The notes beneath the pieces are model-generated. The model ran no database searches. It was given only the letters and a program-made list of their open reading frames with translations, and was not told the DNA's origin. Shown here piece by piece: positions 1-15,683 of a stretch of 37,287 nucleotides of DNA; the stretch's first letter is position 1; every line of letters starts with the position of its first letter. Location of the stretch: contig CANDKY010000034.1 of assembly GCA_947385425.1 (NCBI GenBank), positions 1-37,287 of the forward strand, read 5' to 3'. Both the position numbers and the translations under genes were made by a program. Source of the DNA: an uncultured Lachnospiraceae bacterium. Lineage in GTDB: Bacteria > Bacillota > Clostridia > Lachnospirales > Lachnospiraceae.

Positions 1-32
1 AAGAAGATTCCTATTGGAAACACAGAAATCCC

Positions 33-51
33 CTTAAGTCAATGACATTGG
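33..51. mobile_element. terminal repeat of a transposable element
   Basis: These 19 bases (CTTAAGTCAATGACATTGG) match the outer end of the hairpin elements at 5783-5973 and 7814-8023 with one mismatch. The sequence on the left does not resemble the interior of those small elements. This end may therefore belong to a larger, perhaps transposase-bearing relative lying outside the window. Homology to the LysM protein begins directly after it, so it looks like an insertion into that gene. The matching end and the target duplication would be upstream and cannot be seen. Confidence 0.6.
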
Positions 52-79
52 AAGTATATCCGGTCCATATATTGCACAT

Positions 80-2449
80 ATGCAGGATGGACAGGGAGGA
101 ACTGTGGGGACTTACTCCCGGGAAGAATCGGAGGGGTATGACTATTGCAGTAAGGTTACTTTATATGAGGGATACCATGTGGATGAAATCTATTATCTGA
201 AAATGGGTTACAACAGTGCAGTCGGAAATATTCCTTCCGCAGTGACTGCCGCCTATGTGGGACGGTATTCTTCCATAGGGGAAGCAGCTGCGGATGGGGC
301 GGAGAACATTAAGGATATTTTGTTTGCAGGCGATAACAGCACAGAAAAAGGGTATGGGGCGGACTATAGCCAGGGAGTTGATTTTACGATTTTTGTCGGG
401 GAAGACGGGTCACCGGGGCAGAAGGTTTATCACTGTCGTGTCAGGACGGAGGAAGGGACAAGTTTACCCTCCGATTATAATTGGATCGTTTTTTCGGGTT
501 TAAAGGGTGTCGATGGGGAGGACATCCCCTGTTATGTTGTTCCTTTAAGCTATGACTCTTTTGGGTCTGCAAATTTCTATACGATTCTGGTTGGCGGTGA
601 GGTGGATGTAAGCAGTCTGATCCCGGTATTCCGGACTCCATCGGGGGCAAGGGTATTTACAACGGGCAGCAGCGTGCCGGAGACAAGCGGCGTGTCGGCC
701 CATGATTTTTCCAAAGGTGCGGTATTGTATACCGTTTCCCAGGAAGAAGGGGTTCAGATGGTGAAAAACTATTGGCTGCAGGTTGTAAAGGCTAAGAGCG
801 GCAGGGGGCGTCTGTACATAAACAGCCTGGAGGATGCCGGGGCAGGCACGAGGGAGGAAAACGGCGTTATTTATTCCACACGGGAGGTTGTGCTGGATTA
901 CTATCACAGAAACAGGCATGATATTCTGCTGATGAATATAGGGACCGATGCCATCCCCAACCTGTCCGCGGAACTGGAATCGGATGTGGTGGAACTGGAT
1001 GAATACTGGACATTGAAGGGAAATTACAGCCTGCCCGGACTCAGCACTCTGACGAAAGAGACGGAACACGGGGAACTGCCGAATTTTGCCCAGTTGAGAA
1101 TGAAGGCAAAGGACGGTGTGGAAGAGGGGACGGAGATATCCGGTACGCTGACCATTAAGTCCGGGACGGAACCGCTGATGGTACTGACATTAACGGGTGT
1201 CATCGGCAGTCCGCGGATTATTACGGAAGAGCTTCCGCAGTCGTTAAAATGTACTTTGTGGGTGCCTTACGGGACGTTTATCCAGAACAACAATAAGTAC
1301 AGTTGGAATAAAATAAGCTACAGCCTTGCGGACGGCAGTCTGCCGGCAGGGATGGAACTTAGGGAGAACGGGGAGATATACGGTGTGCCGGAGGAAACCG
1401 GGGAGTTTACATTCACGGTGCGCATGACGAACAGTACGGAGAGTTTCCCGGATGATATGAAAACCTATACACTGGCGGTGGAAAGGAATACGGATGAGAA
1501 TGCGGAAGCATCGACGGACCCCGGGTATGAGCTGATCCAGCGTGTGCCGGATTTCCAGGCGGGCATGGCGACGGCGGACAGCCGGACACTGGTTTCTGTG
1601 GGGCCATATGAGGAATTTGTGGACATCTACCTGGACGGCAGGAAGCTGGAAAGGGGAAGTGAATATACGTCGGAACCCGGCAGCACGAGGATTACGGTGC
1701 GCAGCCAGACCCTTACGCCGCCCGGCGCAGCCGGTACCCATACGCTGGGGGTTGAGTTCCGGACAAAGGATACTGGGCTGTTAAAGCGTGCGGCGCAGAA
1801 TTATAAAGTGGGGTATGACGTTCCGGATAATGGGGACAGCGGAAGCGGAGACGGAAATAGTGGAGGAAACAATGGCGGAAGCGGTAATGGCGGCGCCGAT
1901 AAGGATGGCGAAAGCGGCGGTAACGGCGGCAATGCAGATAACGGCGGCGGTAACCCGGCCGGGGAAGGCGGTGTTTCCGGCGGGGACGGTCCAGGCGATG
2001 ACGTGGGCGCGGCGGTTTCCTCCGCTGTCCGGGCGGTGGCCATCGCGGTTTCCACGACGGATACGGATGCCGTGATCCGTTATACGGTGAAGTCCGGTGA
2101 TACACTCTGGAAGATTGCGGAAAAGTTTTATGGCGCCGGGAAGTACTGGCAGAAGGTTTTTGAGGACAACAGGGCGGTGATCGGCAATCCGAACCGGATA
2201 TACGCGGGGCAGGTTATTGTCATTTATAAGGCGCAGGCGGATATTTCTGCCCGGCAGGGGAATCCGTCCGCAGGCGGCAGCGGCGGGAGTCTTTATACCG
2301 TGGAAGCGGGGGATACCCTGTGGAAGATTGCCCGGGAAGTTTACGGGCAGGGCTGGCGCTGGAGGCAGATTTACCGGGCCAATGCGGATACCGTCCGTGA
2401 GCCGGGGGATATTTATGCGGGGCAGGCGCTTTTTATCCCGGAGGGGTAG
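80..2449 (+). CDS. LysM surface protein, copy A, 5'-truncated by a transposon end
   Basis: This is a paralogue of the intact protein at 15684-19511, matching it from about its residue 540 to the end. The first ~540 residues, including the signal peptide, are missing. The frame is open back to the transposon end at 51, and no good ribosome binding site precedes the first ATG, so I regard it as a 5'-truncated pseudogene that still carries a long open frame. Visible parts are a beta-rich region, an Ig-like putative-Ig segment (about residues 390-470), a Gly/Asn/Ser-rich linker (about 590-650) and two C-terminal LysM domains (about 667-716 and 738-789, each with YTV..GDTLWKIA). LysM domains bind peptidoglycan or chitin glycans. 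Expression and export are unlikely without the lost 5' part. Confidence 0.8.
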   Translation: MQDGQGGTVGTYSREESEGYDYCSKVTLYEGYHVDEIYYLKMGYNSAVGNIPSAVTAAYVGRYSSIGEAAADGAENIKDILFAGDNSTEKGYGADYSQGVDFTIFVGEDGSPGQKVYHCRVRTEEGTSLPSDYNWIVFSGLKGVDGEDIPCYVVPLSYDSFGSANFYTILVGGEVDVSSLIPVFRTPSGARVFTTGSSVPETSGVSAHDFSKGAVLYTVSQEEGVQMVKNYWLQVVKAKSGRGRLYINSLEDAGAGTREENGVIYSTREVVLDYYHRNRHDILLMNIGTDAIPNLSAELESDVVELDEYWTLKGNYSLPGLSTLTKETEHGELPNFAQLRMKAKDGVEEGTEISGTLTIKSGTEPLMVLTLTGVIGSPRIITEELPQSLKCTLWVPYGTFIQNNNKYSWNKISYSLADGSLPAGMELRENGEIYGVPEETGEFTFTVRMTNSTESFPDDMKTYTLAVERNTDENAEASTDPGYELIQRVPDFQAGMATADSRTLVSVGPYEEFVDIYLDGRKLERGSEYTSEPGSTRITVRSQTLTPPGAAGTHTLGVEFRTKDTGLLKRAAQNYKVGYDVPDNGDSGSGDGNSGGNNGGSGNGGADKDGESGGNGGNADNGGGNPAGEGGVSGGDGPGDDVGAAVSSAVRAVAIAVSTTDTDAVIRYTVKSGDTLWKIAEKFYGAGKYWQKVFEDNRAVIGNPNRIYAGQVIVIYKAQADISARQGNPSAGGSGGSLYTVEAGDTLWKIAREVYGQGWRWRQIYRANADTVREPGDIYAGQALFIPEG

Positions 2450-3115: not shown

Positions 3116-3274
3116 ATTATTATGCCCCCGAAGGATGAGAAAAATAACAAGCCCCGCTGCAAATACCGGAGTTTTATGTTGTTTCCGGCGTATGGTTCGC
3201 AGCAAATCCGGTAAATAAAAGATTTCATATTCTTGTATAGAACAAGTATAGCAACATCGGTTATACTACAATAT

Positions 3275-3336
3275 ATTCTATAGAATACATTATTATACTC
3301 TATAGAATTGACATGACGTGGTAAAATATGTATAAT
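3275..3336 (+). promoter_or_regulatory. promoter with twin palindromic operators (LysM copy B)
   Basis: Two 12-bp dyads, ATTCTATAGAAT (3275-3286) and ACTCTATAGAAT (3297-3308), are spaced 22 bp centre to centre. The second touches a TTGACA -35 box (3308-3313), followed by a 17-bp spacer and TATAAT (3331-3336). This is a near-ideal sigma-A promoter with operators placed for repression or close activation. The same arrangement occurs at 11794-11855. Confidence 0.85.
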
Positions 3337-3691
3337 AAACCCAGTTTACAAAATTTTTAAGAAATTTTAAAAAAGGCATGATGCGGGATGCAAGCAGAAA
3401 GAAGCCCGGATCGGTATGGAATATAAGCGCCATGCCGTTTGATAATAAATAATATACCATGCACAATCCGGCGGGATGCAGAAGGCATGGGAGAGCGTTG
3501 GAGGCTGTAATGGTACGGGGGTATGGCAAATGCCACCGGGATATGGTTCCTGTCGTGGAACCAATAGGGGCGGAAGTGTAAATGTACATTGCCGGAATGC
3601 ATATTTTCAAAATGATAGTTTTTCGGGAATAAAACCTCCCGGGAACAGTAGTTATCAAATTTAGGCCTGTAACAGGCGGAAAGGGGTTCGC
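3337..3691 (+). other. untranslated leader of LysM copy B
   Basis: About 355 bases lie between the promoter and the signal-peptide ATG. A 62-codon open frame (3476-3664) encodes a Gly/Ser/Cys-rich peptide with no recognised family and a poor ribosome binding site. I do not call it a gene. Nothing else distinct is seen. Confidence 0.4.
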
Positions 3692-5078
3692 ATGGGAAGT
3701 GTAAAACGAAGGCTGGCGGCATTGCCGGCCGGGGTATTTGTGGCATCCGGCGTGGCGGAAGCCATGACGGTAAGTATGCCGGTGTTTGCGGCGACGGCTG
3801 CGGCGGATGGCGCGACAGCGGGGTGCACCGGTTATTTTGACGGATAGCATTCCGGATGCAGTAAAGTATGTTCCTTATGGAACTATGATTTAGAATTCCA
3901 ATAAATACAGTAAAACAAGGGTAGAATATGCATTATCTGGCAGATTGCCAGACGGAATGGAGTTTAAGAAAAACAAAGAACTTTACGGAGTGCCTAGGGA
4001 GGAAGGGGTTTTCCATTTCGAAATTCGTATGGTAAGTGTAAATCCATATACAGATATAACAAAGGAGTTTACTTTAACTGTAAAAGAGAATACGAATGCA
4101 AACGTAGATGCGGCCACAGATGCAGGCTATGACGTGACCCAGCGCATCCCCGCAGTTGCCATAGGCTCTTCGGGCAGCCATACTTTTGTATCGCAGGGTG
4201 TCCTGGAAGAGTTCGTGGATGCTTATTTGGATGGTGAAAAACTGGTGAGGGATGTGGACTATGATGCGGAATCCGGAAGTACCAGAATTACAATCAGCAG
4301 CCAGACATTAACGAGGGCAAACGAAGTCGGTACGCATACCCTTGGTGTGGAATTCCGTACAGAGGGTGAAAACCTGCTGAGGAAAGCGGCACAGAACTTT
4401 AATGTTGTGGAGGGTACTGCGACGGATGATAAAGAGCCGGGCGATAATGGCGCCGGAGGCAATACACCGGATAATAACGTGCCGGGAGGCGATGGGCCGG
4501 GAAACGGAAATGCCGGAAATAATGGTTCCGGAAACACAGGGAATAGCAACACGGGAAACAGCGGTTCCGGAAGCGGCAGTTCGAATGATGGCGGCGGTTC
4601 CGCAGGGGACGGAGCGGAAGAGAACAATTCCAACAGCGCTGCCGGAAATCCCGGCTGGTTTACGGCCAACACAATTGCAGCCCGTGGGGCATCGACCGGG
4701 GAAGCGGAGAGCAGGACTATGGTTTATACCGTAGAACCCGGGGATACCCTGTCAAAGATTGCCGTAAGGTATTATGGAAACGCTTCCCTTTGGAGAAAGA
4801 TTTTTGAGGATAACAGGGATGTCATAGCCAATCCCAACCGGGTCCGCGCCGGAATGAGAATCCGGTTATACCTGGCGGATGTGACAGCGGAAACGGCGGA
4901 AGCAGGAGTTCCTGACACAACGGGAACATATACTGTCCGGAGAGGGGACAGCCTGTGGAAAATTGCCAGGGCGATGTACGGCCAGGGATGGCAGTGGAGG
5001 AGAATCTATGACGCCAACCGAAGCGCGATACCGGAGACCCTGATGCTGCGTGTGGGGCAGATCCTTGTGATTCCTTAA
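3692..5078 (+). pseudogene. LysM surface protein, copy B, internally deleted pseudogene
   Basis: The gene starts with an intact signal-peptide coding stretch (MGSVKRRLAALPAGVFVASG, close to the copy C start) and runs to a stop at 3845. Just after it, in another frame, the sequence continues with the late part of the family (IPDAVKYVPYGTMI). There a TAG at 3891-3893 replaces the glutamine codon found in copy C. An open frame from 3945 then carries the Ig-like segment, a Gly/Asn/Ser linker and two LysM domains (about 4722-4872 and 4926-5075). Roughly 850 residues present in copy C are missing at the junction near 3845. The gene keeps a strong promoter but cannot make a full product without frame repair. 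Confidence 0.85.
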
Positions 5079-5131
5079 GGAAATACATAAGAGATAAATG
5101 AAACAGGAAGAATTTAATCGTATCAATGTAA

Positions 5132-5158
5132 AAAGGAGTGTCATTGTGACACTCCTTT
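5132..5158 (+). terminator. intrinsic terminator after LysM copy B
   Basis: A perfect 12-bp stem, AAAGGAGTGTCA with loop TTG and TGACACTCCTTT, lies 54 bases past the stop codon. The A and T runs at the arm ends could let it act on both strands. Confidence 0.75.
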
Positions 5159-5406
5159 AAAATTATACCGTTTTTATTGGTGGTTTCTGATACAATTTAC
5201 GTTCCACAAATTTCTTTTCAAGTGCAAGTTTTTTATCGTCTCAGTGTTACTTTTTTCTATATGTATTAATCGCTCATGGTAAACGCAGGAAATCATTGAA
5301 AACAGGGCATCACAAGAACTCTAAGTATATCACATCAAAAATGTAAAGCCTTTGGTAATGGAATAGGCTTTACACCATTGGTGGTGTGGTGTCTGCTATG
5401 TAGTAG

Positions 5407-5660
5407 TTATGCTATACTTTCAATACGTTCTTTTACTTTTCGTAATTCATTTTCAAGATGATTCACCCGGATAAGCAACATTTCCTTTTCATTATCAACT
5501 TTTCATCAAGTTTACGGCTTAAATCCAAATGACCTTCTGCAATAATTTTTATATTCCGATTTGTTTCATTTTCAAGCGTTAGTTGAATACTTTTAATATC
5601 ATGCTTTATAGGTTCTAATAAAGATTCAATATCTTGCAGATCCTTATTTGCCAGTGCCAT
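5407..5660 (-). pseudogene. frameshifted small gene, function unknown
   Basis: Reading leftward from the ATG at 5660, which is preceded by AAAGGAG at good spacing, the product begins MALANKDLQDIESLLEPIKH and looks like a small helical protein. After DEKL the frame runs into a premature stop near 5463. Shifting by one base in a short A-run near 5500 restores VDNEKEMLLIRVNHLENELR and a coiled-coil-like end stopping at 5407. A single-base deletion is the simple explanation. Programmed slippage is possible but less likely. I do not recognise the family. Its flanks carry imperfect direct repeats (AAGTATATCA...GTAAAG at about 5322 and 5700). Confidence 0.65.
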
Positions 5661-5782
5661 AATATCACGCTCCTTTGAAACTATGTTAATAGGTATAAGT
5701 AAGTATATCATATCCAAGGTGTAAAGTCTATTCTATTATCAATGTACTTTTGATTGTGTGGTGTCCGGGTTACAGTTCACTC

Positions 5783-5973
5783 CCAATGTCATTAACTTAA
5801 GCTTTCCAGAGCGCCGCAGACCACATATCTCATCCGGACGCGCTTTCGCTCAGCGGCAGACGCAACGGTACTAAGGCACCAAAATACGGCGCCTAAGTGC
5901 CGGCATCTTTCAATGGTCCGGATTGAGATATATGATCTGCAGCGCCCCGAAAAGCTTAAGTTAATGACATTGG
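5783..5973. mobile_element. hairpin MITE (family 1), copy 1, with 7-bp target duplication
   Basis: A 191-bp element bounded by perfect 22-bp terminal inverted repeats that begin CCAATGTCATTAAC. The two halves stay complementary with mismatches for about 60 bp, so the element can fold as one long hairpin. It is flanked by TTCACTC on both sides (5776-5782 and 5974-5980), a 7-bp target-site duplication (8 bp if the last G is counted). It has no open frame. A transposase acting in trans is implied. Confidence 0.9.
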
Positions 5974-5989
5974 TTCACTCCCCGGTTCC

Positions 5990-6033
5990 CTATCCCGAAA
6001 CCACCCTGCATTGTTTTTTGTAACATGCAATTC
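5990..6033 (-). pseudogene. 3' scrap of an AAA/PD-(D/E)XK nuclease gene
   Basis: On the minus strand these bases encode ACYKKQCRVVSG followed by TAG. They match the late part of the gene at 7911-9434 almost base for base, and the rest of that gene is absent here. The fragment shows where the native family stop probably lies. At the corresponding place the larger gene has CAG and reads on. Confidence 0.6.
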
Positions 6034-6191
6034 TATGGTAACCTCATCCAGGACATAGGACGCAAAAGACTTCCCGATAAAATCATCACAGGATATTTGG
6101 GAACCATTCCGGCAGATTGTATGTAGGACGTGGCAGAGAACCTTTTCAAAATCCCTGCCGCAGGTAAACGTCTCCCTAAGGACAGAACCCA

Positions 6192-6425
6192 TCTTGCATT
6201 TCTGCAGGAAACAATAGCGAGTATCTCCTCAGTTCCGAGATAGACGAAGAACAGAACTACAACATGGTGGACGGCAGGCGGAATAATATGTCCCCCAGGA
6301 GGAAGAATGGCAGGGCATCCGTCCTGGCAAAGCTGCACCGCAAACAGGCGGAGATTGCAAAGCGGTATGGGAGGCCCGCACAGCAGATGGAGACGGCAGA
6401 AGATATGGAGCGCAGGCGGAAGTAA
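6192..6425 (+). pseudogene. C-terminal fragment of an integrative-element protein (DUF4316-like)
   Basis: The open frame without a start codon ends at TAA 6423-6425 and reads ...SSEIDEEQNYNMVDG, then a basic stretch with ASVLAKLHRKQAEIA. The NYNMVDG...SVLAKL pattern resembles the C-terminus of DUF4316-type proteins carried by integrative conjugative elements, from memory of the family. It is likely debris of such an element. A terminator follows at once. Confidence 0.5.
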
Positions 6426-6431
6426 GAAAGG

Positions 6432-6473
6432 GAGAAGTGCCTGGCGAACGCTGCCGGATGCTTCTCTTTTTTT
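6432..6473 (+). terminator. intrinsic terminator after the ICE-type fragment
   Basis: GAGAAG (6432-6437) pairs with CTTCTC (6461-6466), with an imperfect inner stem, and is followed by seven T residues. Confidence 0.6.
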
Positions 6474-6478
6474 GCGTC

Positions 6479-6507
6479 TTGAACAATGGAGAGTTTCTCT
6501 GTATAAT
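6479..6507 (+). promoter_or_regulatory. promoter of the Rpn-type nuclease gene
   Basis: TTGAAC (6479-6484), a 17-bp spacer and TATAAT (6502-6507) lie 72 bases before the ATG of the downstream gene. Confidence 0.65.
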
Positions 6508-6578
6508 AAAACCATAGCAGACAGGGCATAGCTGATTTGTCAGACTGACCGGCAAAAAGCTGGAACCGAGGTGATACG

Positions 6579-7478
6579 ATGCAGGGTGAGACATTACAGG
6601 AAGAACCAAAAGAGAAAACAGCGGAGAAAAAGGAGACATTTGCAAAATATACGGCGAAAGACAGTGTTTTCGGGGCGCTTTTCCGGGATAAGAAGTACCT
6701 GATGCAGCTATACCATGCGCTCCACCCGGAGGATGTAAAGACGACGGAAGACGCGCTTACGGACATTACGATAAGGAACGTCCTCACGAACGGGATCTAC
6801 AATGATCTGTGTTTCCGAGTTGGGGATAAAGTCATGTTCCTGGTCGAGCATCAATCTTCATGGACGATGAATATCATTATACGTGTGCTGATGTATTTAG
6901 CGCAGATTTATCATGATTACTTTGAGAAACAGGGTGCAGACTTATACGGGAGCAAGAAAGTCCATGTCCCAGAACCGGAGTTATACATGATTTTTACAGG
7001 AGAGCGTGCCAGCAGGCCGGAAATGATCTCACTTACCAAAGAATTTTTCGGCGGGAAGGAATGTGCCATTGAAGTAAAGGTGAAGGTGCTTTATGGCGGC
7101 AAAGGAAATGATATTATCAGCCAGTATGTAAATTTTACAAAAGTATATAATGAACAGGTGAAAAAATATGGGAGAAGCCGGGAAGCTGTCACGGAAACCA
7201 TCTGTATCTGTAAGGACAGGGATGTGCTCCGTGAGTTTTTGGCAGGCAGGGAAAAGGAGGTTATATCTATTATGATGGCTTTGTTTGATGAAGAAAAGAT
7301 CATGCGTACCCATATCGCAAGTGAAAAGAAAGCAGCCTCAAAAGAGACTGCACGAAAAGCTGCGGAACAGATGTTGAGGTTGGGGAAATTGTCGGCAGAA
7401 GAGATTGCAGGCTGTTTTACTGAGTTGTCTGTGGAGGATATTCAGGAAATTGAAAGAGGGCTGCTTCAAACGGTATAA
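6579..7478 (+). CDS. Rpn-family PD-(D/E)XK nuclease / putative transposase
   Basis: A 299-aa protein of the Rpn (recombination-promoting nuclease, YhgA-like) family, DNA endonucleases linked to recombination and anti-phage activity in characterised members. The N-terminus carries DSVFGALFRDKKYLMQLYHAL. The nuclease core follows with NDLCFRVGDKVMFLVEHQSS (about residues 80-100), where the D and the E-x-Q fit the PD-(D/E)XK pattern. The C-terminal third is charged and helical and ends in a helical SAEEIA-type segment. GAGGTGATACG sits just before the ATG, and a good promoter lies at 6479. Such genes occur as scattered multicopy paralogues, which fits the surrounding debris. It appears intact. 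Confidence 0.85.
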   Translation: MQGETLQEEPKEKTAEKKETFAKYTAKDSVFGALFRDKKYLMQLYHALHPEDVKTTEDALTDITIRNVLTNGIYNDLCFRVGDKVMFLVEHQSSWTMNIIIRVLMYLAQIYHDYFEKQGADLYGSKKVHVPEPELYMIFTGERASRPEMISLTKEFFGGKECAIEVKVKVLYGGKGNDIISQYVNFTKVYNEQVKKYGRSREAVTETICICKDRDVLREFLAGREKEVISIMMALFDEEKIMRTHIASEKKAASKETARKAAEQMLRLGKLSAEEIAGCFTELSVEDIQEIERGLLQTV

Positions 7479-7496
7479 TAATTTGGGAGTAAGCAG

Positions 7497-7813
7497 ATAC
7501 AAAAGAAAGAATATTGGAGTCCCCAGCAGATGTGCTGGTTGACATAGGTGTGCTGCCCAAGCAGAAATATGAGGAATGGAGATTCGGGAAAGTACGGTAT
7601 CTGGAAGCAGTCTGTACGTGTAATTTAAAGAAACTTTCTTTTATTATGAAATAGATCCGCTCCTATGCAAAGAAAACGAATTTAAAACCGTCATTCTGCT
7701 ATTACAAGCGGTGGGGCGTGAAAAAAAGGCATGGGCATAAGCCGGTAATCCTCCTGCGGTTCAGCAAAAGCGGAAATCCGGAGATTGAAAAGGCGCATAG
7801 GACGGGGAGTAAA
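7497..7813 (+). pseudogene. broken small Lachnospiraceae-type gene of unknown function
   Basis: The start is degenerate (ATA where ATG is expected) and reads KKEYW before a one-base frameshift near 7512. The main frame then gives ESPADVLVDIGVLPKQKYEE, VRYLEAVCTCNLKKLSFIMK and RFSKSGNPEIEKA. A TAG at 7652-7654 interrupts it after SFIMK. The 3' end is cut at 7813 by the MITE. I recall similar ~100-aa proteins as repeated unknowns in this bacterial family, but no function is known to me. There are three independent lesions, so the gene is dead. Confidence 0.65.
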
Positions 7814-8023
7814 CCAATGTCATTAACTTAAGCTTTTCGGGGTGCTGCAAACCATATACCTCAATCCAGACCATTGAAAGACGCCGGCACTTAGGCACCG
7901 TATTTTGGTGCTACACTACATGCAATGTAGTGTTAGTACCGTTGCGTCTGCCGTGAGCGGAAGCGCGTCTGGATGAGATATATGGTTTGTGGCACCACGG
8001 GAAGCTTAAGTTAATGACATTGG
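7814..8023. mobile_element. hairpin MITE (family 1), copy 2, with 7-bp target duplication
   Basis: A 210-bp element with the same perfect 22-bp terminal inverted repeats as 5783-5973, in the opposite orientation. It is flanked by GAGTAAA on both sides (7807-7813 and 8024-8030). It differs from copy 1 by a 19-bp palindromic insert (CACTACAT and ATGTAGTG arms) near 7912-7931. Reading leftward, it supplies the last codons and the stop of the AAA/nuclease gene. Confidence 0.9.
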
Positions 8024-9434
8024 GAGTAAACTGTAATGTGTCCGGTCCCTGTCTCGAAACCACCCTGCATTGTTTTTTGTAGCATGCAATTCCGTATTTG
8101 CGGATGGCAGCCATGCCATTGTCAGTGAATGTCTCTTCATAGTTCCTGTCATTAATCTGTTTCAGCGCTTCCCTGCATCCTTTGTCAAATGCCGCTTTTT
8201 CGGCATATTTGAGTTCAATAAGGATACCGATCCCTTTATCCTCAACCTCCACGCTGATGTCGCAGTAACCCTCGCCGGATTCGGCGTTGGATTTGACATT
8301 CCATCCATCCATGCCTGCAAATAAGCCAAGTAAGATTCCATGGTAAAAATTCTCTTTCCTTTCTTTTGGGGCATTGGTATCGCGGATGCTGATAGTCTTG
8401 CGCAGGTATGAGGTAAATCCCTTTTCGATGGCGGCTGTATCGTTTTCCTCAAATGCACGGCAGAAGTCTGCCAATGTCTGCGTATCTTTTTTTGTTTCAG
8501 CAACGAACCAGTCCTGTATCTGTTCCTCAAATATCCACTGTATCTCTTTGTTTGGGAACACCAGCCCTGTCAGGCTGCCGTCGTCCTTCCCATGCTGCGT
8601 CAGGTATCCGGCGGTAAAAAGGATGCTCCACAGGTTATCGCTTTTGGAATCCAGATCCCTGTAGGTCAGTTCCTGGCGGATTTTCTTTTTAATACAGCTG
8701 CCGTTGATCAGGATCTCGATTTCGTCCCTGGTTGTCCTGTCCGCTTTCTCTATAAATTTCCGGATAATGTGATTGCCGCTTGTATTTACCCAGTAATTCT
8801 GTGGTTCCGTCACGCTTCCGTCACGGAGGCCGTCGCAGTAATTGATCACATCCCAGGGGCAGTATATCCCTGAACCGCCAAACCGGTAGCCGTCATACCA
8901 TTCCTTTATGGCGCCATACTGGCCGGAAAATCCATAATATGCCAGCATTTGCCTCACTTCTGTATCTGTAAAGCCGAAATATTCCCTGTAGCGTACATCT
9001 TTTATGGTATATACCTTAAAATTGTTCAATCCCGTGAAGATGCTTTCCTTTGATAGCCTGAGGCAGCCGGATAATACTGCGAATTCCAGGCTGTCGTTTG
9101 TTTTCAGTGCGTTTTCAAACAGGGCGCGGATCAGATCTGCCATCGGGCCGTAGTATCCGGACTGGTATGCTTTATCAAGGGGGATGTCATATTCATCAAG
9201 CAGCAGGATTACCTTTTGTCCGAAATGCTTCCGCAAAAGCTGGGACAAAAGCTGCAGGCTGTCCTTCAAAAGTTCATCCGGCATTGTGAAAACGCCGGAT
9301 TTGTCTGTGTGGATCAGAGCTTTGTATTGATTGCGTTCCGGCTCAGTCATTTTACTGCTCTGCAGCAGAAACTGTAACCTCCTGGCAATTATCTGGGAGG
9401 TTATCCCGCACAGTATTGACAAAATATTGGGCAA
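7911..9434 (-). CDS. AAA-ATPase-like / PD-(D/E)XK nuclease-like protein, truncated at both ends
   Basis: The 507-aa open frame belongs to the AAA-ATPase-like (PF09820-type) plus PD-(D/E)XK nuclease-like (DUF1703-type) family, predicted nucleases of unclear role. Visible parts are KVILLLDEYDIPLD (Walker B-like, about residues 74-87), the family stretch SGCLRLSKESIFTGLNN, and a C-terminal nuclease core (DISVEVEDKGIGILIELKYA). The usual N-terminal part with the Walker A loop is missing, and the first residues are read from a promoter-like region at 9416-9434. The last ~36 residues come from the MITE at 7814-8023. The related scrap at 5990 ends in TAG where this gene has CAG. Probably a non-functional remnant. 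Confidence 0.75.
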   Translation of the reverse strand: MPNILSILCGITSQIIARRLQFLLQSSKMTEPERNQYKALIHTDKSGVFTMPDELLKDSLQLLSQLLRKHFGQKVILLLDEYDIPLDKAYQSGYYGPMADLIRALFENALKTNDSLEFAVLSGCLRLSKESIFTGLNNFKVYTIKDVRYREYFGFTDTEVRQMLAYYGFSGQYGAIKEWYDGYRFGGSGIYCPWDVINYCDGLRDGSVTEPQNYWVNTSGNHIIRKFIEKADRTTRDEIEILINGSCIKKKIRQELTYRDLDSKSDNLWSILFTAGYLTQHGKDDGSLTGLVFPNKEIQWIFEEQIQDWFVAETKKDTQTLADFCRAFEENDTAAIEKGFTSYLRKTISIRDTNAPKERKENFYHGILLGLFAGMDGWNVKSNAESGEGYCDISVEVEDKGIGILIELKYAEKAAFDKGCREALKQINDRNYEETFTDNGMAAIRKYGIACYKKQCRVVSRQGPDTLQFTPNVINLSFPWCHKPYISSRRASAHGRRNGTNTTLHVV

Positions 9435-9467
9435 ACGTTTACACTATAAAAAACAGAGTAAACGTTT
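9416..9467 (+). promoter_or_regulatory. promoter region with two LacI-type operators
   Basis: TTGACA (9416-9421) is followed 18 bp later by TACACT. Two AAACGTTT palindromes with a central CG lie at 9433-9440 and 9460-9467, 27 bp centre to centre. This operator form is typical of LacI-family repressors. It probably once stood directly before the sugar kinase gene at 9679. Repeat fragments now fill the 200 bp between them. Confidence 0.55.
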
Positions 9468-9511
9468 AGGAACTGTTAAGAATTAATTTTGCAGACGGCG
9501 TAGGATAAATT

Positions 9512-9577
9512 TTTTCCATCTGTGCGGTTGGCACCCTGTCCCCTCCCGGCTGTGCAGGAGAAGAAAAATCCAACTGC
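9512..9577. repeat. single arm of the family-3 palindrome
   Basis: Sixty-six bases containing TGTGCGGTTGGCACCCTGT and AGGAGAAGAAAAATCCAACTG match one arm of the 261-bp palindrome at 26113-26373. The other arm is absent. Confidence 0.7.
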
Positions 9578-9615
9578 GGCGCACATCTGGCGAAAAGCAG
9601 ATTTTAAACAGGCTC
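9575..9615. repeat. end fragment of a family-2 repeat
   Basis: These bases equal the right end of the element at 11377-11486 (GGCGCACATCTGGCG ... TTTTAAACAGGCTC). No matching left end is present, because it is joined directly to the family-3 arm. Confidence 0.65.
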
Positions 9616-9678
9616 TAAAAAGGTTTAGACAAGTCAGAGGTAAAGATTAATTCGGAAGAAAGGGAGGCCGGATATTTC

Positions 9679-11028
9679 ATGAGAGCGTTAGGGATTGACA
9701 TCGGAACGACAACAATAAGTGCGGTAATTGTGAATATGCGCGGGCAGGGGATCGAAAGAGCCTGCAACATTGCAAACGGAAGTTTTATGGAGACAGGCTC
9801 CGAATGGGAGAAAATCCAGAATCCGGATAGGATCCTCCGGAAAGTGTATAAGCTTCTGGAGGAGATTTTTGAGGAGTATCAGGATATCCGGGTGATCGGG
9901 CTGACAGGGCAGATGCACGGCATTGTATATCTGAACGGGGACGGGGAACATATCAGCCCTCTGTACACATGGCAGGATGGAAGGGGAAATCTGGCGATAG
10001 AAAACGGGAAAAGCATCTGTGAGATGTTAGAGGAAAACTTTTCGCTTAAAACTGCTGCGGGATACGGGCTTGTGACTCATCTCTATAACCTGAGGCAGAA
10101 TCTTGTGCCGGACGGCGCAGTGAAAGTGTGCACGATCATGGACTATGTTGGCATGCGGCTGACAGGGAGGAAAACGCCTCTGGTACATAGCAGCAATGCA
10201 GCCGGCCTTGGGCTGTACGATGTGGAAAAGGGAGGGTTCTTCGAAGAGATATTTAAGAAAGCGGGCGGCGACGTGGAAATACTTCCGGAAGTTACGGAAA
10301 ATTTCACCTGTATCGGCACTTACCGGGGGATTCCGGTGAGCGTTGCCATCGGTGATAACCAGGCCAGTTTCCTGGGTTCTGTGGAAGACGCATCGGATTC
10401 CATTCTGGTAAATGTTGGAACCGGAAGCCAGATATCCGTGTTGTCGGAAGAATACTTTACGGCGAAAGGGGTCGAGGCAAGGCCCTTTGCAGGGAAGTAT
10501 TATCTGCTCGTGGGTTCTTCCCTGTGCGGCGGAAGGGCTTATGCCGCACTGGAGCATTTTTTCAGAATGTATGCAGAGGCATTGGGAGTAGAAAATGCGG
10601 ATCACTACAATGTGATGGAAAAGCTTGTGGATCGAGTGGATAAAAAGGAAAAGACAGAGAAGCTGAAAGTGAACACCACTTTTTCCGGAACCCGGGAAAA
10701 ACCGGAAAAGAGAGGCTCTGTTAAAAATATCGGGATCGGGAATTTTACGCCGGCGGCCCTGACAGAGGGTGTGATGGAAGGGATGGCCTCAGAACTTCGC
10801 AAAATGTATGCCAGAATGGAAAAGGGGCTTCCTCTTTCCAGGACAAGGATTGTTGCGTCTGGTAACGGCTTGAGAAAGAACCATCATCTGCAGGAGATCA
10901 TCAGTGAAAAGTTCGGGATGGGTCTGCAGATGGCGGAGCATGTGGAGGAAGCCGCCTACGGGGCGGCGGTTTCAGGTATGGTTGCATTAGGAGAACGAAC
11001 TTTAAAGGAAGCGGTCGGTATCCTGTAA
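9679..11028 (+). CDS. FGGY-family carbohydrate kinase, sedoheptulokinase-like
   Basis: A 449-aa cytoplasmic sugar kinase. The N-terminal FGGY domain opens with the phosphate-binding loop GIDIGTTTISAVIV and has TGQMHGIVYL (about residues 75-84) and LYTWQDGRG (about 95-103). The C-terminal domain carries VNVGTGSQISV (about 255) and the ATP-site stretch VASGNGLRKN (about 395). The TGQMHGI/TWQDGRG combination is closest in my recollection to bacterial sedoheptulokinases, which phosphorylate sedoheptulose to its 7-phosphate. Xylulose or another ketose remains possible. The ATG at 9679 follows GGGAGG at a rather long 12-base spacing. No transporter or aldolase partner is nearby. LacI-type operators upstream suggest sugar-responsive control. 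Confidence 0.8.
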   Translation: MRALGIDIGTTTISAVIVNMRGQGIERACNIANGSFMETGSEWEKIQNPDRILRKVYKLLEEIFEEYQDIRVIGLTGQMHGIVYLNGDGEHISPLYTWQDGRGNLAIENGKSICEMLEENFSLKTAAGYGLVTHLYNLRQNLVPDGAVKVCTIMDYVGMRLTGRKTPLVHSSNAAGLGLYDVEKGGFFEEIFKKAGGDVEILPEVTENFTCIGTYRGIPVSVAIGDNQASFLGSVEDASDSILVNVGTGSQISVLSEEYFTAKGVEARPFAGKYYLLVGSSLCGGRAYAALEHFFRMYAEALGVENADHYNVMEKLVDRVDKKEKTEKLKVNTTFSGTREKPEKRGSVKNIGIGNFTPAALTEGVMEGMASELRKMYARMEKGLPLSRTRIVASGNGLRKNHHLQEIISEKFGMGLQMAEHVEEAAYGAAVSGMVALGERTLKEAVGIL

Positions 11029-11081
11029 AAATGAAATGCTTCAAGATAAAACTGCATTTTTCCCAGGTATTCCGGTTTGAA

Positions 11082-11113
11082 ATCGTCACTTATTATAGAG
11101 TGGCGGTTTTTTT
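11082..11113 (+). terminator. intrinsic terminator after the sugar kinase
   Basis: ATCGTCAC pairs (with G-T wobbles) with GTGGCGGT around an 11-base loop, followed by a run of seven T residues. Confidence 0.6.
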
Positions 11114-11376
11114 ATGCACAGCCCATGCAGTGGAAATATGCCGCTAAGGCGGCGCATGGGCGCGCGGTGAGTGGGGGAAAAGCATCCCCTACTCGATTGC
11201 ACAGGGGTACCCAAAGGAAAAATGTCAGCAAGGGCTGACGGGTGCCCGGCGTGCGAGTAGGGGAGGATGGCTCTTCCCTACTCGATTGCACAGCCTCATG
11301 CAGGGGAAGTATGCTGCTAAGGAACTGTCCATAAATAACTTGTGCAATTTACTTGTCTTTTTCTCCGGCTGCATTA

Positions 11377-11486
11377 GAGCCTGTTTAAAATCTCATTTCC
11401 ACCATCTGTACACCTCATTTTGCGAGATCTTTGCCCCTCACAAACTGTGGCGCACATCTGGCGAAAAGCAGATTTTAAACAGGCTC
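11377..11486. repeat. family-2 dispersed inverted-repeat element, short variant
   Basis: A 110-bp element with near-perfect terminal inverted repeats (GAGCCTGTTTAAAAT and its complement), flanked by TTA on both sides. It lacks most of the interior seen in the 160-174-bp copies. Confidence 0.7.
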
Positions 11487-11639
11487 TTAGTCAAAAATCA
11501 GTTACATAGTCCTAAGGAATCCACCATTCTGATACCCCCTTAGGGCAAAGCCCACTATGCGCCCGATTTTTGACAATGATGTAATAATTTACACTTCCGA
11601 AGAAAAATTCTGCGCAACTTGCACAAGTCTAATTTGGTC

Positions 11640-11710
11640 TTAATATCGCGCAAAGTGGTGAAGCGGTTACACCGCGTACAGATCGGGGGAATGATTTTTC
11701 AAACAGGTTC
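11640..11710. repeat. right-end fragment of a family-2 repeat
   Basis: It carries ATATCGCGCAAAGTGG and GAATGATTTTTCAAACAGG, matching the right half of the copy at 24818-24977. The paired left end is missing here. Confidence 0.65.
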
Positions 11711-11793
11711 TAAGGCGGCGCATGAGGGGCGCGGCGGGTAACTTGATTGTTTCAAAGGCTGTGTTATCCGGTGTCTGTTAAGATTTTACATAT

Positions 11794-11855
11794 ACTCTAT
11801 AGAATATATTAATGAATTCTATAGAGTTGACATGCGCGTGCGAAATAGGTATAAT
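11794..11855 (+). promoter_or_regulatory. promoter with twin palindromic operators (kinase/LysM operon)
   Basis: ACTCTATAGAAT (11794-11805) and ATTCTATAGAGT (11816-11827) are 22 bp apart centre to centre. The second touches TTGACA (11827-11832), then a 17-bp spacer and TATAAT (11850-11855). The geometry is identical to 3275-3336, which implies control by the same factor. It drives a 222-base leader and then the genes at 12077, 12256 and 15684. Confidence 0.85.
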
Positions 11856-12076: not shown

Positions 12077-12268
12077 ATGTTTGGTTTATCAGGCAGCGAA
12101 TGCCTGCTTTACGGAGGGATAGCGGTTATGGCGGCGGCTGTGCTGGCAGCAGCGGCCAGTATTGTGGTTTTCCGGATAACAGGGAAGAAGATTGCCCGTG
12201 TTTTGGAGGAAGAGTATGGTATCGGTACATTAAGGGGAAGGTATGGTCAGGTAAAATGTCGCAGATAA
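12077..12268 (+). CDS. small single-pass membrane protein upstream of the kinase
   Basis: A 63-aa protein starting MFGLSGSECLLYGG. One long hydrophobic helix (about residues 11-35, Ala/Val-rich) is followed by a basic/acidic cytoplasmic tail (TGKKIARVLEEEYG). The ATG at 12077 has GAGAAGGG upstream. A longer frame from 11894 has no better start. The gene overlaps the kinase start by 13 bases, so the two are probably translationally coupled. Its product may be a partner or membrane anchor of the kinase, but the family is not one I can name. Confidence 0.6.
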   Translation: MFGLSGSECLLYGGIAVMAAAVLAAAASIVVFRITGKKIARVLEEEYGIGTLRGRYGQVKCRR

Positions 12269-15200
12269 TAGAAGGTATGTATGAAATACAGGAGCAGATA
12301 GGAGCCGGAGGAGGAGGTATTGTTTACCGGGGACGGCATATGCGTCTGGACAAGGATATCGTGCTGAAGGCGGATAAGCGTAAACTCAGCGCCTCCAGGG
12401 AATCCCTGAGAAGGGAAGTGGATATGCTTAAGGATCTGAGCCATACCAATATCCCGCAGGTATATGATTTTATCCAGGAAGGCAGCACGGTATATACCGT
12501 TATGGACTACATAGAAGGGAAAAGCTTTGACAGGATTCTTGCGGACGGGCGGCGCATATCGCAGGCGGAAGTGGTGAACTGGGCCTGCCAGTTATTGGAC
12601 GCATTGGATTATCTGCATAACCGTCCTCCATACGGCATTCTGCACGGAGATATCAAGCCGGCTAATATTATGCTGCGGCCGGATGGAAACATCTGCCTGA
12701 TTGATTATAATATTGCGCTTGCGCTGGGAGAGGAAGGGGCGGTCAAGGTTGGTTTCAGCCGCGGCTATGCATCGCCGGAGCATTACGGGGCGGATTATAT
12801 CAAAAGCAACAGGGCGGCGGCAGTCAAAAGGGTGACAAATGTTTATGCGGATCGTCAGGAAGAAAACGCATGTGCACGGGATGCTTCAAAGGGACAGGGT
12901 GAAGAGAAGGCCGGGAGCGGTCTGCAGGCCGGGCGGGAGGACGCGCCGGGACGGCCGGAAATGCAGAACCGGGCAGGTGCAGAGGAACGGACGGACATGC
13001 CGGTTCCGACAGAAGTAACGGAATTGATGCAGGAACAGACTGAGATAGTGAACTGGGAGGAAGGACAGGCTCAGGCTGAGAAAGGGAACCGGACCGAGGG
13101 ACAGGCCCAGACTGAGATAGTGAACCGGATGGGAGAAGAGGATCTCACGGGAACGGCGGAACAGGCGGGAGCACATAAACCGGCCAGAGGGAAAATGACG
13201 GGAATGGCAGGGCAAAGGGGCGGTTATGCCGGACATAGCCCAGGAAGGCAGGACGTGGAAGGCGGAAAGCTCCCTTTCGGGAGAAGCGGTACGGAGAGCA
13301 GCGCGGGCAGCAGTACGGCAGACGGCAGGAAAGTAATCATGCTGGATGAGCGTTCGGATATTTACTGTCTGGGCGCAACTTTGTACCATATACTGTCCGG
13401 GCGGCGTCCGGCGCAGGATGCCCGGGAGGTCATTCCCCTCGGGCCCGAAATCTGCAGCCCGGCGGTTTCCGGGATTATCCGGAAGGCTATGGATCCGCAG
13501 CCGGATCGGAGATACCAGTCTGCGAAAGAGATGCTGGTAGATTTCCTGGAACTTGGCAGGAACGATCCGCGTGCAGTCCGGCACAGGCACAGGGAAGCTG
13601 CCGCCGCAGTCCTGCTGTCCGTCCTGTTCCTGTCCGGGGGGATGAGCGCTTTTGCCGGGCAGAGCCAGCTAAAGCAGAGGGAGAGCGCGCTGGCCCTGTC
13701 CGAATATTCGGCGAATGCCCTTGCGGAAGGGGATGTGTCCGGCGCTGTAGAGATGGCACTGCAGGCAATCCCGCAGAAGAGAGGGCTGTTCTCCGCGCCG
13801 ATGGCTGCACAGGCACAGAAAGCGCTGACGGATGCGCTGGGGGTCTATGATTTGTCGGACGGGTTTAAGGCATTGGATGCCCTGCAACTTCCGGCGGCGC
13901 CTTTTCACATAACAATATCGCCGGGCGGGACAAGGCTGGCAGTAGTTTATGCTTATGAGGCAGTGATATATGATTTGACGGATATTACGGGCAATAATGC
14001 CCGAAGCAATAACGCCCGAAGCAATAATGCCCGGGGCAATAATGCCAAGGATAGTAATGCCCGGGAATTGGTGGTTCTGCCGGTGCAGGAGTCGGCATTG
14101 TCGGATGCGGTGTTTGTGGGTGAGGATGTGCTTATTTATGCCGGGGAGTATGGCGTAAGCGCCTATGACCTGGCAGGGAAAAAAGAAATCTGGACAGCCG
14201 GTACGGCGACGTCCCTTGCCCTTTCCGGCGATGGCAGCAGGGTGGCGGCGGTTAACCGGAGGGATGGTTATGCTTTGATATACCGGACTTCGGACGGGGC
14301 GGAAGTCGGAAGATGTGATTTTTGGGGACGGCATCTTTCCGTTCCGGAGAATGATATTTTTGCGGATGCAGGGGACAGTATCCTTGCATTGAACCGGGAT
14401 GGCAGCGTGCTGGCGGCCAGCTTCCAGGACGGCGGGCTGGAGCTTTTTGATTTGGATGCCCCTGAAGAGGGGATTATCTTATATGAAACTTCCGGTTATA
14501 CCCATTTTGAGGGAGGGTTCCAGGGGGATTATTTTGCTTACGGGGCATCGGAAGGAGGTCGGTCGGTATTTGGCCTTATCAATGTAAGGGACGGGGTGGA
14601 AGTCGGAGGGTTTGATTCCCCGGACAGGTTCCTTGTCCAGGCTGGGGAGAAGGGGATTTTCCTTGCGAACGGAAACCTCCTGGTATCTTTTGATCCCGGC
14701 ACACTGGAGCAGAAGGAGCTTGCCTATACAGGGAATTTGGATATCACGGGTTTTTCTATAGCGGAAAATTATGTGCTGGTATCCACGGAGGATAACGGCG
14801 CGTTATTTTATGACAGCGGCGCGAACCTGATTTCAACAGAGCAGTGTAAGGAACCCTGTGATTTCCTGGCATTGTCCGGAGGCTTAGGCGTGCTGGCAAA
14901 CCGTAATGAGCCTTCCCTGCGCCTGCTGCGGCTGGAAGACCATAAAGATGCCCTGCTGTTATCCTATGACGCAAGGTATGGACATGACGAAGCCCGAATC
15001 AGCATGGACGGCCAGACCGCCATGCTGTTCAATTATAGACAGTTTGCCATTTATGATATGGCAGGCCGGCTGATAACAGAGGAAAAATTGCCGGACGCTG
15101 ACAGCATTTATGACCAGCAGTTCCGGAAAGGGGAGGATGGATCCTGGCTGGAGGTGACCTGGTATGACGGAACGGTACGCCGCTACAGTGCCGGGGACGG

Positions 15201-15612
15201 TGCGGTGCTGTCGGAGGAAAAAGGGGAGCCGCCCCGGAAGGATCTGTACGAGGAATTTTACACGGAAAAGTACAGGATCGCCTCTTCCCTGCATTCGGCG
15301 GCGGAGGTGTATGACAGGGAAACAGGGAAACTGGTCAGTGTCCTGGAGAAGGACTCCTATCTTACGTATGTCACGCAGGCGGGTGAGTATCTGGTTACGG
15401 AATATGTCAGCGCTGCGGGTGAAAGGTACGGGCTTTTGCTTGACCGGGAACTGCAGACACTGGCGTATCTGCCCGGGCTGTGCGATATCATGGACGGGGA
15501 GCTGGTTTTTGACTATGGTTCGGGAAATCTGCGGAAATGCCCGCTTTATTCTATCGGCGAATTGATAGATATGGGGGAGGCGTATCTGGAAGGAGGGGAT
15601 GCGGGTTTTTAA
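12256..15612 (+). CDS. membrane Ser/Thr protein kinase with extracytoplasmic beta-propeller
   Basis: An 1118-aa protein. The cytoplasmic kinase domain has the glycine loop GAGGGGIVYRG (about 16-26), VLK with the ATP lysine K38, catalytic loop HGDIKPANIML (130-140), LIDYN in place of LxDFG (148-152), and SPE (173-175). A polar Gln/Glu/Gly/Arg-rich stretch of ~175 residues (about 183-360) splits the domain before the DERSDIYCLG helix. One transmembrane helix follows (about 448-467), then a helix with the LALSEYSANALAEGDVSGA pattern common before WD-type propellers, then ~600 residues of repeated beta blades ending at the C-terminus. The HRD arginine is glycine, so this is a non-RD kinase, but the catalytic and metal-binding aspartates are kept. 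Likely role: an envelope sensor that signals through phosphorylation. Start chosen at 12256, just before the kinase fold. Confidence 0.85.
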   Translation: MSQIIEGMYEIQEQIGAGGGGIVYRGRHMRLDKDIVLKADKRKLSASRESLRREVDMLKDLSHTNIPQVYDFIQEGSTVYTVMDYIEGKSFDRILADGRRISQAEVVNWACQLLDALDYLHNRPPYGILHGDIKPANIMLRPDGNICLIDYNIALALGEEGAVKVGFSRGYASPEHYGADYIKSNRAAAVKRVTNVYADRQEENACARDASKGQGEEKAGSGLQAGREDAPGRPEMQNRAGAEERTDMPVPTEVTELMQEQTEIVNWEEGQAQAEKGNRTEGQAQTEIVNRMGEEDLTGTAEQAGAHKPARGKMTGMAGQRGGYAGHSPGRQDVEGGKLPFGRSGTESSAGSSTADGRKVIMLDERSDIYCLGATLYHILSGRRPAQDAREVIPLGPEICSPAVSGIIRKAMDPQPDRRYQSAKEMLVDFLELGRNDPRAVRHRHREAAAAVLLSVLFLSGGMSAFAGQSQLKQRESALALSEYSANALAEGDVSGAVEMALQAIPQKRGLFSAPMAAQAQKALTDALGVYDLSDGFKALDALQLPAAPFHITISPGGTRLAVVYAYEAVIYDLTDITGNNARSNNARSNNARGNNAKDSNARELVVLPVQESALSDAVFVGEDVLIYAGEYGVSAYDLAGKKEIWTAGTATSLALSGDGSRVAAVNRRDGYALIYRTSDGAEVGRCDFWGRHLSVPENDIFADAGDSILALNRDGSVLAASFQDGGLELFDLDAPEEGIILYETSGYTHFEGGFQGDYFAYGASEGGRSVFGLINVRDGVEVGGFDSPDRFLVQAGEKGIFLANGNLLVSFDPGTLEQKELAYTGNLDITGFSIAENYVLVSTEDNGALFYDSGANLISTEQCKEPCDFLALSGGLGVLANRNEPSLRLLRLEDHKDALLLSYDARYGHDEARISMDGQTAMLFNYRQFAIYDMAGRLITEEKLPDADSIYDQQFRKGEDGSWLEVTWYDGTVRRYSAGDGAVLSEEKGEPPRKDLYEEFYTEKYRIASSLHSAAEVYDRETGKLVSVLEKDSYLTYVTQAGEYLVTEYVSAAGERYGLLLDRELQTLAYLPGLCDIMDGELVFDYGSGNLRKCPLYSIGELIDMGEAYLEGGDAGF
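13990..14064 (+). repeat. 15-bp tandem repeat, five units, inside the kinase gene
   Basis: Five in-frame units encode variants of S-N-N-A-R. They lie in a loop of the first propeller blade. Unit number could change without breaking the frame. Confidence 0.85.
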
Positions 15613-15683
15613 CGGGGATTGCGGGATGCGGATTTAATTGGCAAGTAATTTTGAGCCTGTTTGGCGGGCAGAAGGAGGGACAT

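Follow-up and report, generated by a model that had tools for sequence, protein, structure and literature searches.

Twin palindromic operators beside a divergent XRE gene as a candidate switch for surface machinery genes in Lachnospiraceae

The window analysed here is a 37,287-bp stretch of contig CANDKY010000034.1 from an uncultured member of the Lachnospiraceae (assembly GCA_947385425.1), a large gut-associated family. It carries two promoters, designated P2 and P3, each preceded by two exact copies of the 8-bp palindrome TCTATAGA that together form a putative twin operator (Table 1). The gene for a small XRE-family regulator lies next to P2 on the opposite strand, as described in the earlier note, a model's reading of this sequence. 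LysM and Ser/Thr protein kinase genes lie behind the two promoters. A third promoter of the same design, P1, is present on another contig of this genome, C90, in front of type VII secretion genes. Comparison with relatives suggests that the XRE protein recognizes these operators and that similar arrangements precede other surface machines, including Tad pili.

Paired palindromes and promoters in the window

The four exact TCTATAGA copies are the only ones in the window and occur as two pairs, each with a start-to-start spacing of 22 bp, as the earlier note had claimed; 100 dinucleotide shuffles of the window contain a mean of 0.23 copies and at most 2. Single copies with one mismatch allowed are at background (9 observed, 9.25 expected), so the signal resides in the exact, paired form, and the pattern of a pair, one further base and TTGAC is absent from 100 shuffles even at three mismatches. 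TTGACA, 17 bp and TATAAT follow each pair, again as reported. For the second palindrome and TTGACA to have a base in common, as the earlier note says, the palindrome has to be taken as at least 12 bp long; one base separates the 8-bp core from TTGACA at both P2 and P3.

P2 and P3 are identical at 51 of 68 positions in operator and promoter, at 39 of 152 upstream and at 32 of 150 downstream, in agreement with the statement that the surrounding sequences otherwise differ; with P1 included, the pairwise values are 48 to 54 of 68, with flanks matching at 32 to 51 of 150 or 152. The likeness is thus confined to operator and promoter and is not simply the product of a recent duplication, which is rejected as its source since the flanking DNA differs. 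A chance origin of the pairs is likewise rejected, by the shuffles and by the whole-genome search described below. The paired motif is correct as observed and strongly non-random.

Table 1. Features of the window at and around the twin operators
Feature	Position	Strand	Remarks
3' half of LysM/He_PIG gene	80..2449	+	5' half ends contig C90; insertion-sequence ends between
XRE (HTH_3) regulator, 109 amino acids	2786..3115	-	faces away from P2; candidate binder at P1, P2 and P3
Predicted extended -10 of XRE promoter	3245..3254	-	TTGCTATACT on minus strand; near-fixed distance from operator in relatives; putative promoter, no shuffle control
Twin operator of P2	3277..3306	+	TCTATAGA at 3277-3284 and 3299-3306; extended 16-bp palindromes 3273-3288 and 3295-3310
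P2 core promoter	3308..3336	+	TTGACA 3308-3313, 17 bp, TATAAT 3331-3336
LysM open reading frame behind P2	3945..5078	+	remnant of long LysM gene
Twin operator of P3	11796..11825	+	TCTATAGA at 11796-11803 and 11818-11825
P3 core promoter	11827..11855	+	TTGACA 11827-11832, 17 bp, TATAAT 11850-11855
63-amino-acid open reading frame, one hydrophobic segment	12077..12268	+	probably first in P3 series
Ser/Thr protein kinase	12256..15612	+	1118 amino acids from conserved start
LysM protein 3 (LysM3)	15537..19511	+	two LysM repeats; open reading frame start given, true start probably slightly downstream

A search of the entire genome (4.42 Mb in 198 contigs), as proposed in the earlier note, shows that the pair is not scattered. 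With at most one mismatch it occurs at three places, P2, P3 and C90:2917-2946 (P1, one mismatch), the last of which precedes a type VII locus. Eleven further matches at two to three mismatches are background, given that a reversed-pattern control yields 33. P1 has TTGGCA, 17 bp and TATAAT in the same register as P2 and P3.

The XRE protein scores 46.9 bits against Pfam PF01381 (gathering cut-off 23) and stays below every NCBIfam cut-off, with the SlrR model giving 16.2 bits against a cut-off of 250. The AlphaFold2 monomer (pLDDT 91.3) has seven helices, of which those at residues 77-87 and 91-108 follow the helix-turn-helix. Its closest solved relatives by sequence in the PDB are C.BclI (the best, E 2.7e-6), PezA and C.AhdI (third, 1.1e-5), and its closest by fold, using Foldseek, are a possible transposon-related DNA-binding protein of C. 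difficile, C.BclI, ClgR and C.AhdI.

The operator and the XRE gene among relatives

Among 397 genomes of the family, a 25-position operator-promoter pattern with up to three mismatches is found in eight, all of which encode this XRE protein (10 hits on both strands; 3 in the reversed control). The seven motif genomes besides the window's own each have an XRE gene nearby whose product is 57-79% identical, and in five of them it is divergent and less than 120 bp from the motif; in G030 and G354 the matched site lies ~0.9 kb past the 3' end of the XRE gene with one gene between, and a further pair is present at the XRE gene's own promoter. In the other direction, an XRE profile (E up to 1e-30) hits ten of the 397 genomes, namely the eight with the motif together with G044 and G257, which have weaker pairs of two and three mismatches respectively. 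Fisher's test gives p 3e-15 for this association, kinship among genomes ignored. At genus level a close XRE orthologue (89% identity) and the motif occur in the same two of 16 genomes, and none of the other 14 has either; the XRE hits ranked next by E-value have 32-42% identity across the parts that match.

Scanning GTDB species genomes with the XRE profile recovered 50 loci, 45 of them at 48-91% identity. The titles of these 45 refer to Lachnospiraceae or genera within it, to Eubacteriales/Clostridiales, to a Candidatus genus or, for L095, simply to a bacterium. The five distant loci (L135-L139) served only as controls, L121, a near twin of L120, was dropped from alignment A2, and L124, with 18 bp upstream, was dropped from the spacing count, leaving 44 loci with at least 60 bp. 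A pair at spacing 22 is present within 300 bp of the XRE gene in 30, 34 and 40 of these 44 at up to one, two and three mismatches respectively. Eight loci were known beforehand from the motif (L090, L096, L105, L108, L109, L112, L116 and L118); without them the pair is found in 23 of 36 at up to one mismatch and in 32 of 36 at up to three. Other spacings from 10 to 45 were rejected, none coming near the count for 22 at up to one or two mismatches, and each reaching at most 2 of 44 at up to one. Markov shuffles give spacing 22 in 0.45% of cases at up to three mismatches and in 0 of 2200 at up to one, and distant XRE controls are without the pair (0 of 5 over 300 bp upstream, and 0 of 18 from the genus, scanned whole). 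These counts agree with the earlier suggestion that the operator layout, with its exact two-turn spacing, is selected, and the co-conservation of motif and gene in both search directions points to the XRE protein as the cognate factor, as had been proposed.

Across 43 operators (from 40 loci and the three of the window's own genome) the consensus is ATAYTCTATAGARTAT twice, with centres 22 bp apart. A -35 element within one base of TTGACA directly follows the second palindrome in 32 of the 43, and 31 also have a -10 element at up to two mismatches (29 at 17 bp, 2 at 16 bp), 22 of them at up to one, both elements in these 22 lying within one base of consensus. With the usual start distance assumed, the palindrome centres fall at -40.5 and -62.5 from the predicted start. 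The distal palindrome matches 14.7 of the 16 consensus positions and the proximal one 12.8, the latter ceding its outer half to the -35 element. Towards the XRE gene, 33 of the 43 have a box resembling TTGCTATACT (an extended -10, up to 3 of 10 mismatches) at -31 to -33, a count that has no shuffle control, and the position of this box would put the palindrome centres near -42.5 and -64.5 of the XRE promoter.

Some loci depart from this plan. Eleven of the 40 keep the pair beside the XRE gene with no TTGACA at the exact place (in L128 it is five bases further on), and L105 and L130 have a second pair with TTGACA elsewhere, before a LytTR gene and Tad genes respectively; autoregulation therefore seems separable from target control. 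One operator of the 43, that of L107, has a third in-register TCTATAGA between the -35 and -10 elements, so that three copies follow one another every 22 bp, some 62-114 bp ahead of the XRE gene.

Genes behind the operators

The genes behind P1 encode FHA, ParA-like, EssC, TPR, WXG100, VWA-FHA and PP2C proteins, with interspersed open reading frames of no family, and end with the 5' half of a LysM-type gene. The EssC protein scores 1144 bits against a TIGR03928 cut-off of 778 and the WXG100 protein 58.6 against a TIGR03930 cut-off of 44.9, and with both above these NCBI curated cut-offs this is a type VII secretion locus, whose layout suggests a single operon. Pfam names no EssB/YukC, EsaB/YukD or EsaA among the scanned C90 proteins, where several open reading frames have no family and short ones were not scanned. 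P1 keeps a degenerate XRE promoter box (L015 2884-2893, 3 of 10 mismatches) with no XRE gene seen there, and may therefore derive from duplication of the XRE-side region. Directly upstream of P1, at L015 260-2714, two neighbouring genes match the model for the BREX ATPases BrxC/BrxD.

C90 appears to adjoin the window. The last 80 bases of C90 (L015) and window positions 1-80 contain inverted copies of CAATGTCATTGACTTAAG (18-bp inverted repeats) flanked by the 9-bp direct repeat GAAGTATAT, and the two halves of the LysM gene align with a single 1238-amino-acid protein from a congener, over its residues 3-482 and 522-1238. The shared insertion-sequence ends and the matching halves suggest that an insertion sequence splits the LysM gene at the junction. 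Elsewhere in the window, positions 5770-8036 contain several inverted and direct repeats of 50-109 nt whose ends (CAATGTCATTAACTTAAG) resemble the ends of this insertion sequence; they surround a 299-amino-acid open reading frame (6579-7478), extend to the end of an AAA/PDDEXK_9 gene, and are probably small mobile elements.

Behind P2, residues 52-76 of LysM3 are matched in one frame at 3698-3784 (E 9e-4) and residues 913-1324 in another frame from 3822, so that this LysM gene is evidently a remnant with a deletion and a frameshift. The kinase behind P3 is 56-74% identical, in two segments, to a kinase in the Tad gene series of the congener G013, and a simple hydropathy script finds one borderline hydrophobic stretch in it. 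A 45-nt repeat, 98% identical between its copies at 9572-9616 and 11443-11487, flanks an FGGY carbohydrate kinase gene, and its second copy lies upstream of P3.

G013 has one pair (one mismatch) between a divergent XRE gene, whose product is 89% identical to that of the window, and a long same-strand gene series encoding LysM, TadZ-like, TadA (T2SSE), two T2SSF-type, TadE-like, TadG-like, DUF5702, prepilin peptidase, WG/TPR, DUF6382-FHA, PP2C, kinase and LysM proteins. The TadZ-like receiver, TadA, one T2SSF protein and the prepilin peptidase are above Pfam cut-offs; the second T2SSF and the TadG matches are below, and TadE was named by eye. A similar accessory set of kinase, PP2C, FHA and LysM genes thus goes with a Tad pilus in G013 and with type VII secretion in this genome; between the two genomes, the FHA and PP2C proteins are only distantly alike (27-39% identity over part of their length).

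The genes downstream of the operator vary among the 45 loci. Tad genes, identified by BLAST to those of G013, are present in eight (L090, L097, L098, L116, L117, L118, L130 and L133; TadZ only in L117), and EssC and/or the kinase in five (L092, L093, L094, L096 and L107). Eight more start with a surface-type protein by Pfam (L101, L109, L110, L113, L119, L120, L126 and L128), of the families GBS_Bsp-like, Big_2, LRR_5, RCC1 or GH85_C/fn3; Pfam was given 27 hand-chosen proteins from the 45 loci, and surface and export labels were assigned without a signal-peptide predictor. The other 24 loci are mixed, cut off or unscanned, and include glycan transferases (L095, L123), a histidine kinase (L102), LytTR (L105) and a rhamnogalacturonan lyase (L129); in some no surface theme is seen, for example L091, L106, L111 and L115.

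Whole-genome searches find the pattern, at up to two mismatches, in 30 of 45 genomes, with two control hits. Three additional sites lie away from an XRE promoter, and a fourth is weak (G434 C1:18118, two mismatches). L153 (G419 C10:7515) is the second perfect pair of its genome, 13 kb off, and precedes a kinase orthologue (62% identical to that of G013) with a PP2C-like gene upstream, an independent repeat of P3 in another species. The other two sites, L142 and L145, precede proteins with exported-looking starts. On a tree of the XRE family with 30 labelled rows, the target class changes at least 14 times, with only 8 of 41 inner branches well supported and no shuffle control; its labels are coarse (L108, L125 and L134 have no Pfam scan of their own first gene, and L099 is labelled from a first gene of no family), so that the tree is only a hint of target swapping.

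The earlier note had drawn a two-promoter regulon around wall-bound LysM proteins and a membrane kinase. The link to LysM and kinase genes stands, but there are three promoters, the third before a type VII secretion locus; the LysM reading frame behind P2 is a remnant, the one borderline hydrophobic stretch makes the membrane label a weak one, and the arrangement is not confined to LysM and kinase genes, as relatives have it before Tad pili and varied exported proteins. The regulon is better described as a three-promoter secretion-kinase-LysM cluster under a predicted switch that relatives appear to use for Tad pili and adhesins.

A candidate switch and its relation to known systems

We propose that the XRE protein binds the twin TCTATAGA sites (extended form ATAYTCTATAGARTAT) as a pair of dimers that lie on the same face of the DNA and cooperate, and that it would thereby control both the divergent promoter of its own gene and, across the operator, the surface-machine genes. 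On the comparative evidence the XRE protein is very probably the binder of the twin operators. Autoregulation is likely, and so is the model as a whole, in which the protein binds the palindromes and controls both its own promoter and the surface-machine genes; that it represses the surface genes is the favoured sign of control, held with less assurance. Three promoters would govern one cluster in this genome, with P1 serving type VII secretion (C90), P2 a decayed LysM gene and P3 the Ser/Thr kinase-LysM genes. The proximal site, with its predicted centre at -40.5, abuts a near-consensus -35 element, so that its occupancy would most likely exclude RNA polymerase, and the third palindrome of L107, inside the -35/-10 spacer, also fits repression. 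At the XRE promoter, with a near site at about -42.5, an extended -10 and no good -35, the same protein could activate or tune its own synthesis. The arrangement resembles an autoregulated switch of the SinR or controller-protein kind, with the surface operon probably repressed by covering of its -35 element.

Several points weigh against this model. The pair is absent near the XRE gene in 4 of 44 relatives (L102, L103, L104 and L125, although the L125 genome has one elsewhere), and once three mismatches are allowed the A+T-rich DNA yields matches at other spacings too (spacing 13 in 23 of 44, 24 in 18, 30 in 16), so that any one three-mismatch pair is weak by itself. Construction of the profile drew on the XRE proteins of motif-bearing genomes, and the two search directions are therefore not fully independent. 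Nor are the loci, with L114 and L115 having an identical XRE protein and L120/L121, L105/L108 and L127/L129 being near twins. The XRE protein is found in only 10 of 397 family genomes, and the module is thus uncommon.

The sign of control is where an alternative has most to offer. Sites near -41 and -63 are classic activator positions, and the two computed centres coincide with them; moreover, 10 of the 32 promoters with a good -35 deviate from the -10 consensus at two or more positions, which leaves room for activation. Dimers at -40.5 and -62.5 might recruit RNA polymerase in class II and class I style, or the protein might, like restriction-modification controller proteins, switch from activation to repression as its concentration rises. 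C.BclI and C.AhdI, among the nearest solved relatives, belong to a class for which passages of the sources cited below describe activation from the distal site and repression from the proximal one, and here the distal site is the better match. However, the 22 operators with both promoter elements within one base of consensus should not need such help, and the L107 operator, a single locus, fits repression better. Activation of the surface operons is on balance unlikely, while retaining a real share of the probability. It is far less probable that some other factor binds the palindromes with the XRE gene as an adjacent passenger; this reading draws on two of the three operators of this genome (P1 and P3) not being beside the XRE gene, but it has to contend with an XRE-motif association that holds across genera and in both search directions with different neighbours opposite. 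That the promoter likeness is an artefact of chance or duplication, with no regulatory meaning, is scarcely credible: the degenerate XRE promoter box upstream of P1 makes duplication of the XRE-side region possible there, but flanks diverged while the 68-bp core did not, and dozens of further loci share the layout.

The co-occurrence of the XRE gene and the paired site in many Lachnospiraceae, before surface machines as different as a secretion system, pili and adhesins, looks like that of a reusable on/off switch. We tentatively suggest, as a speculation that may well prove wrong, that Lachnospiraceae lineages plug a cassette of autoregulated XRE gene and twin palindromes before Tad pilus, type VII secretion or giant adhesin genes, with all-or-none expression in subpopulations and the same accessory set on two machines. 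The proposal supplies a candidate regulator, operator and targets for surface machinery in Lachnospiraceae, would place the kinase, phosphatase, FHA and LysM genes under the same switch as two different secretion machines, and offers a simple sequence test for co-regulated surface systems, namely a TCTATAGA pair with 22-bp spacing in front of TTGACA. Among the matches listed, open-licence papers on type VII secretion or Tad/Flp pili gave no description of such a regulator, and of those listed for a literature text search with TCTATAGA none looked relevant by title.

Paired operators between divergent promoters, one with strong -35 and -10 elements and one weak, are a feature of the lambda-type OR switch, which the twin operators here resemble in lying between a strong and a weak divergent promoter. 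They differ in that the putative targets are surface machines. A phage origin found no support in the IMG/VR viral contigs, where 84 stretches matched the peptide patterns and none was confirmed as a relative, phage and plasmid collections lying outside the search.

SinR, a master regulator in Bacillus subtilis, is a tetrameric repressor of biofilm genes with 111 residues that prefers an inverted repeat, its consensus GTTCTYT occurring in varied number and orientation, as given in passages of PMC3163267. The XRE protein is alike in size (109 residues), its predicted model has a C-terminal helical pair after the helix-turn-helix that may correspond to the two-helix oligomerisation region of SinR, and the SinR-SinI entry 1b0n is its Foldseek hit 14 (105 columns, TM score 0.56, root-mean-square deviation 8.8). 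However, no chain named SinR is among its 16 PDB sequence matches (E up to 0.01), and the XRE locus has another palindrome in a strict 22-bp pair in contrast to the variable SinR sites. Controller proteins of the C.Esp1396I type have two operators upstream of their own gene with a dimer on each, TATA-centred in C.Esp1396I, and activate from the distal and repress from the proximal site, according to passages of PMC4041747 and PMC4321490. The likeness to this group (C.BclI, C.AhdI, C.Esp1396I and C.Csp231I) lies in C.BclI being the best PDB match and in paired palindromes upstream of the regulator gene in 40 of 44 loci, where binding of dimers is predicted; the XRE gene differs in being divergent from its putative target rather than co-transcribed, and the recognition sequence and spacing are others. 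Restriction-modification genes are absent from the scanned proteins of the window, C90 and G013 and from the 27 Pfam-scanned proteins of relatives, other neighbours not having been scanned. The XRE protein may work like controller proteins or SinR, and its membership in either group is not established.

The genes that would be controlled also have known counterparts. The EssC and WXG100 proteins of C90 place the P1 locus with the type VII secretion systems of Firmicutes, and the Tad proteins of the congener above their Pfam cut-offs place its series with Tad pili. What sets both apart from those systems is that either machine comes here with PP2C, FHA and LysM genes and a kinase, under what is predicted to be the same kind of XRE operator.

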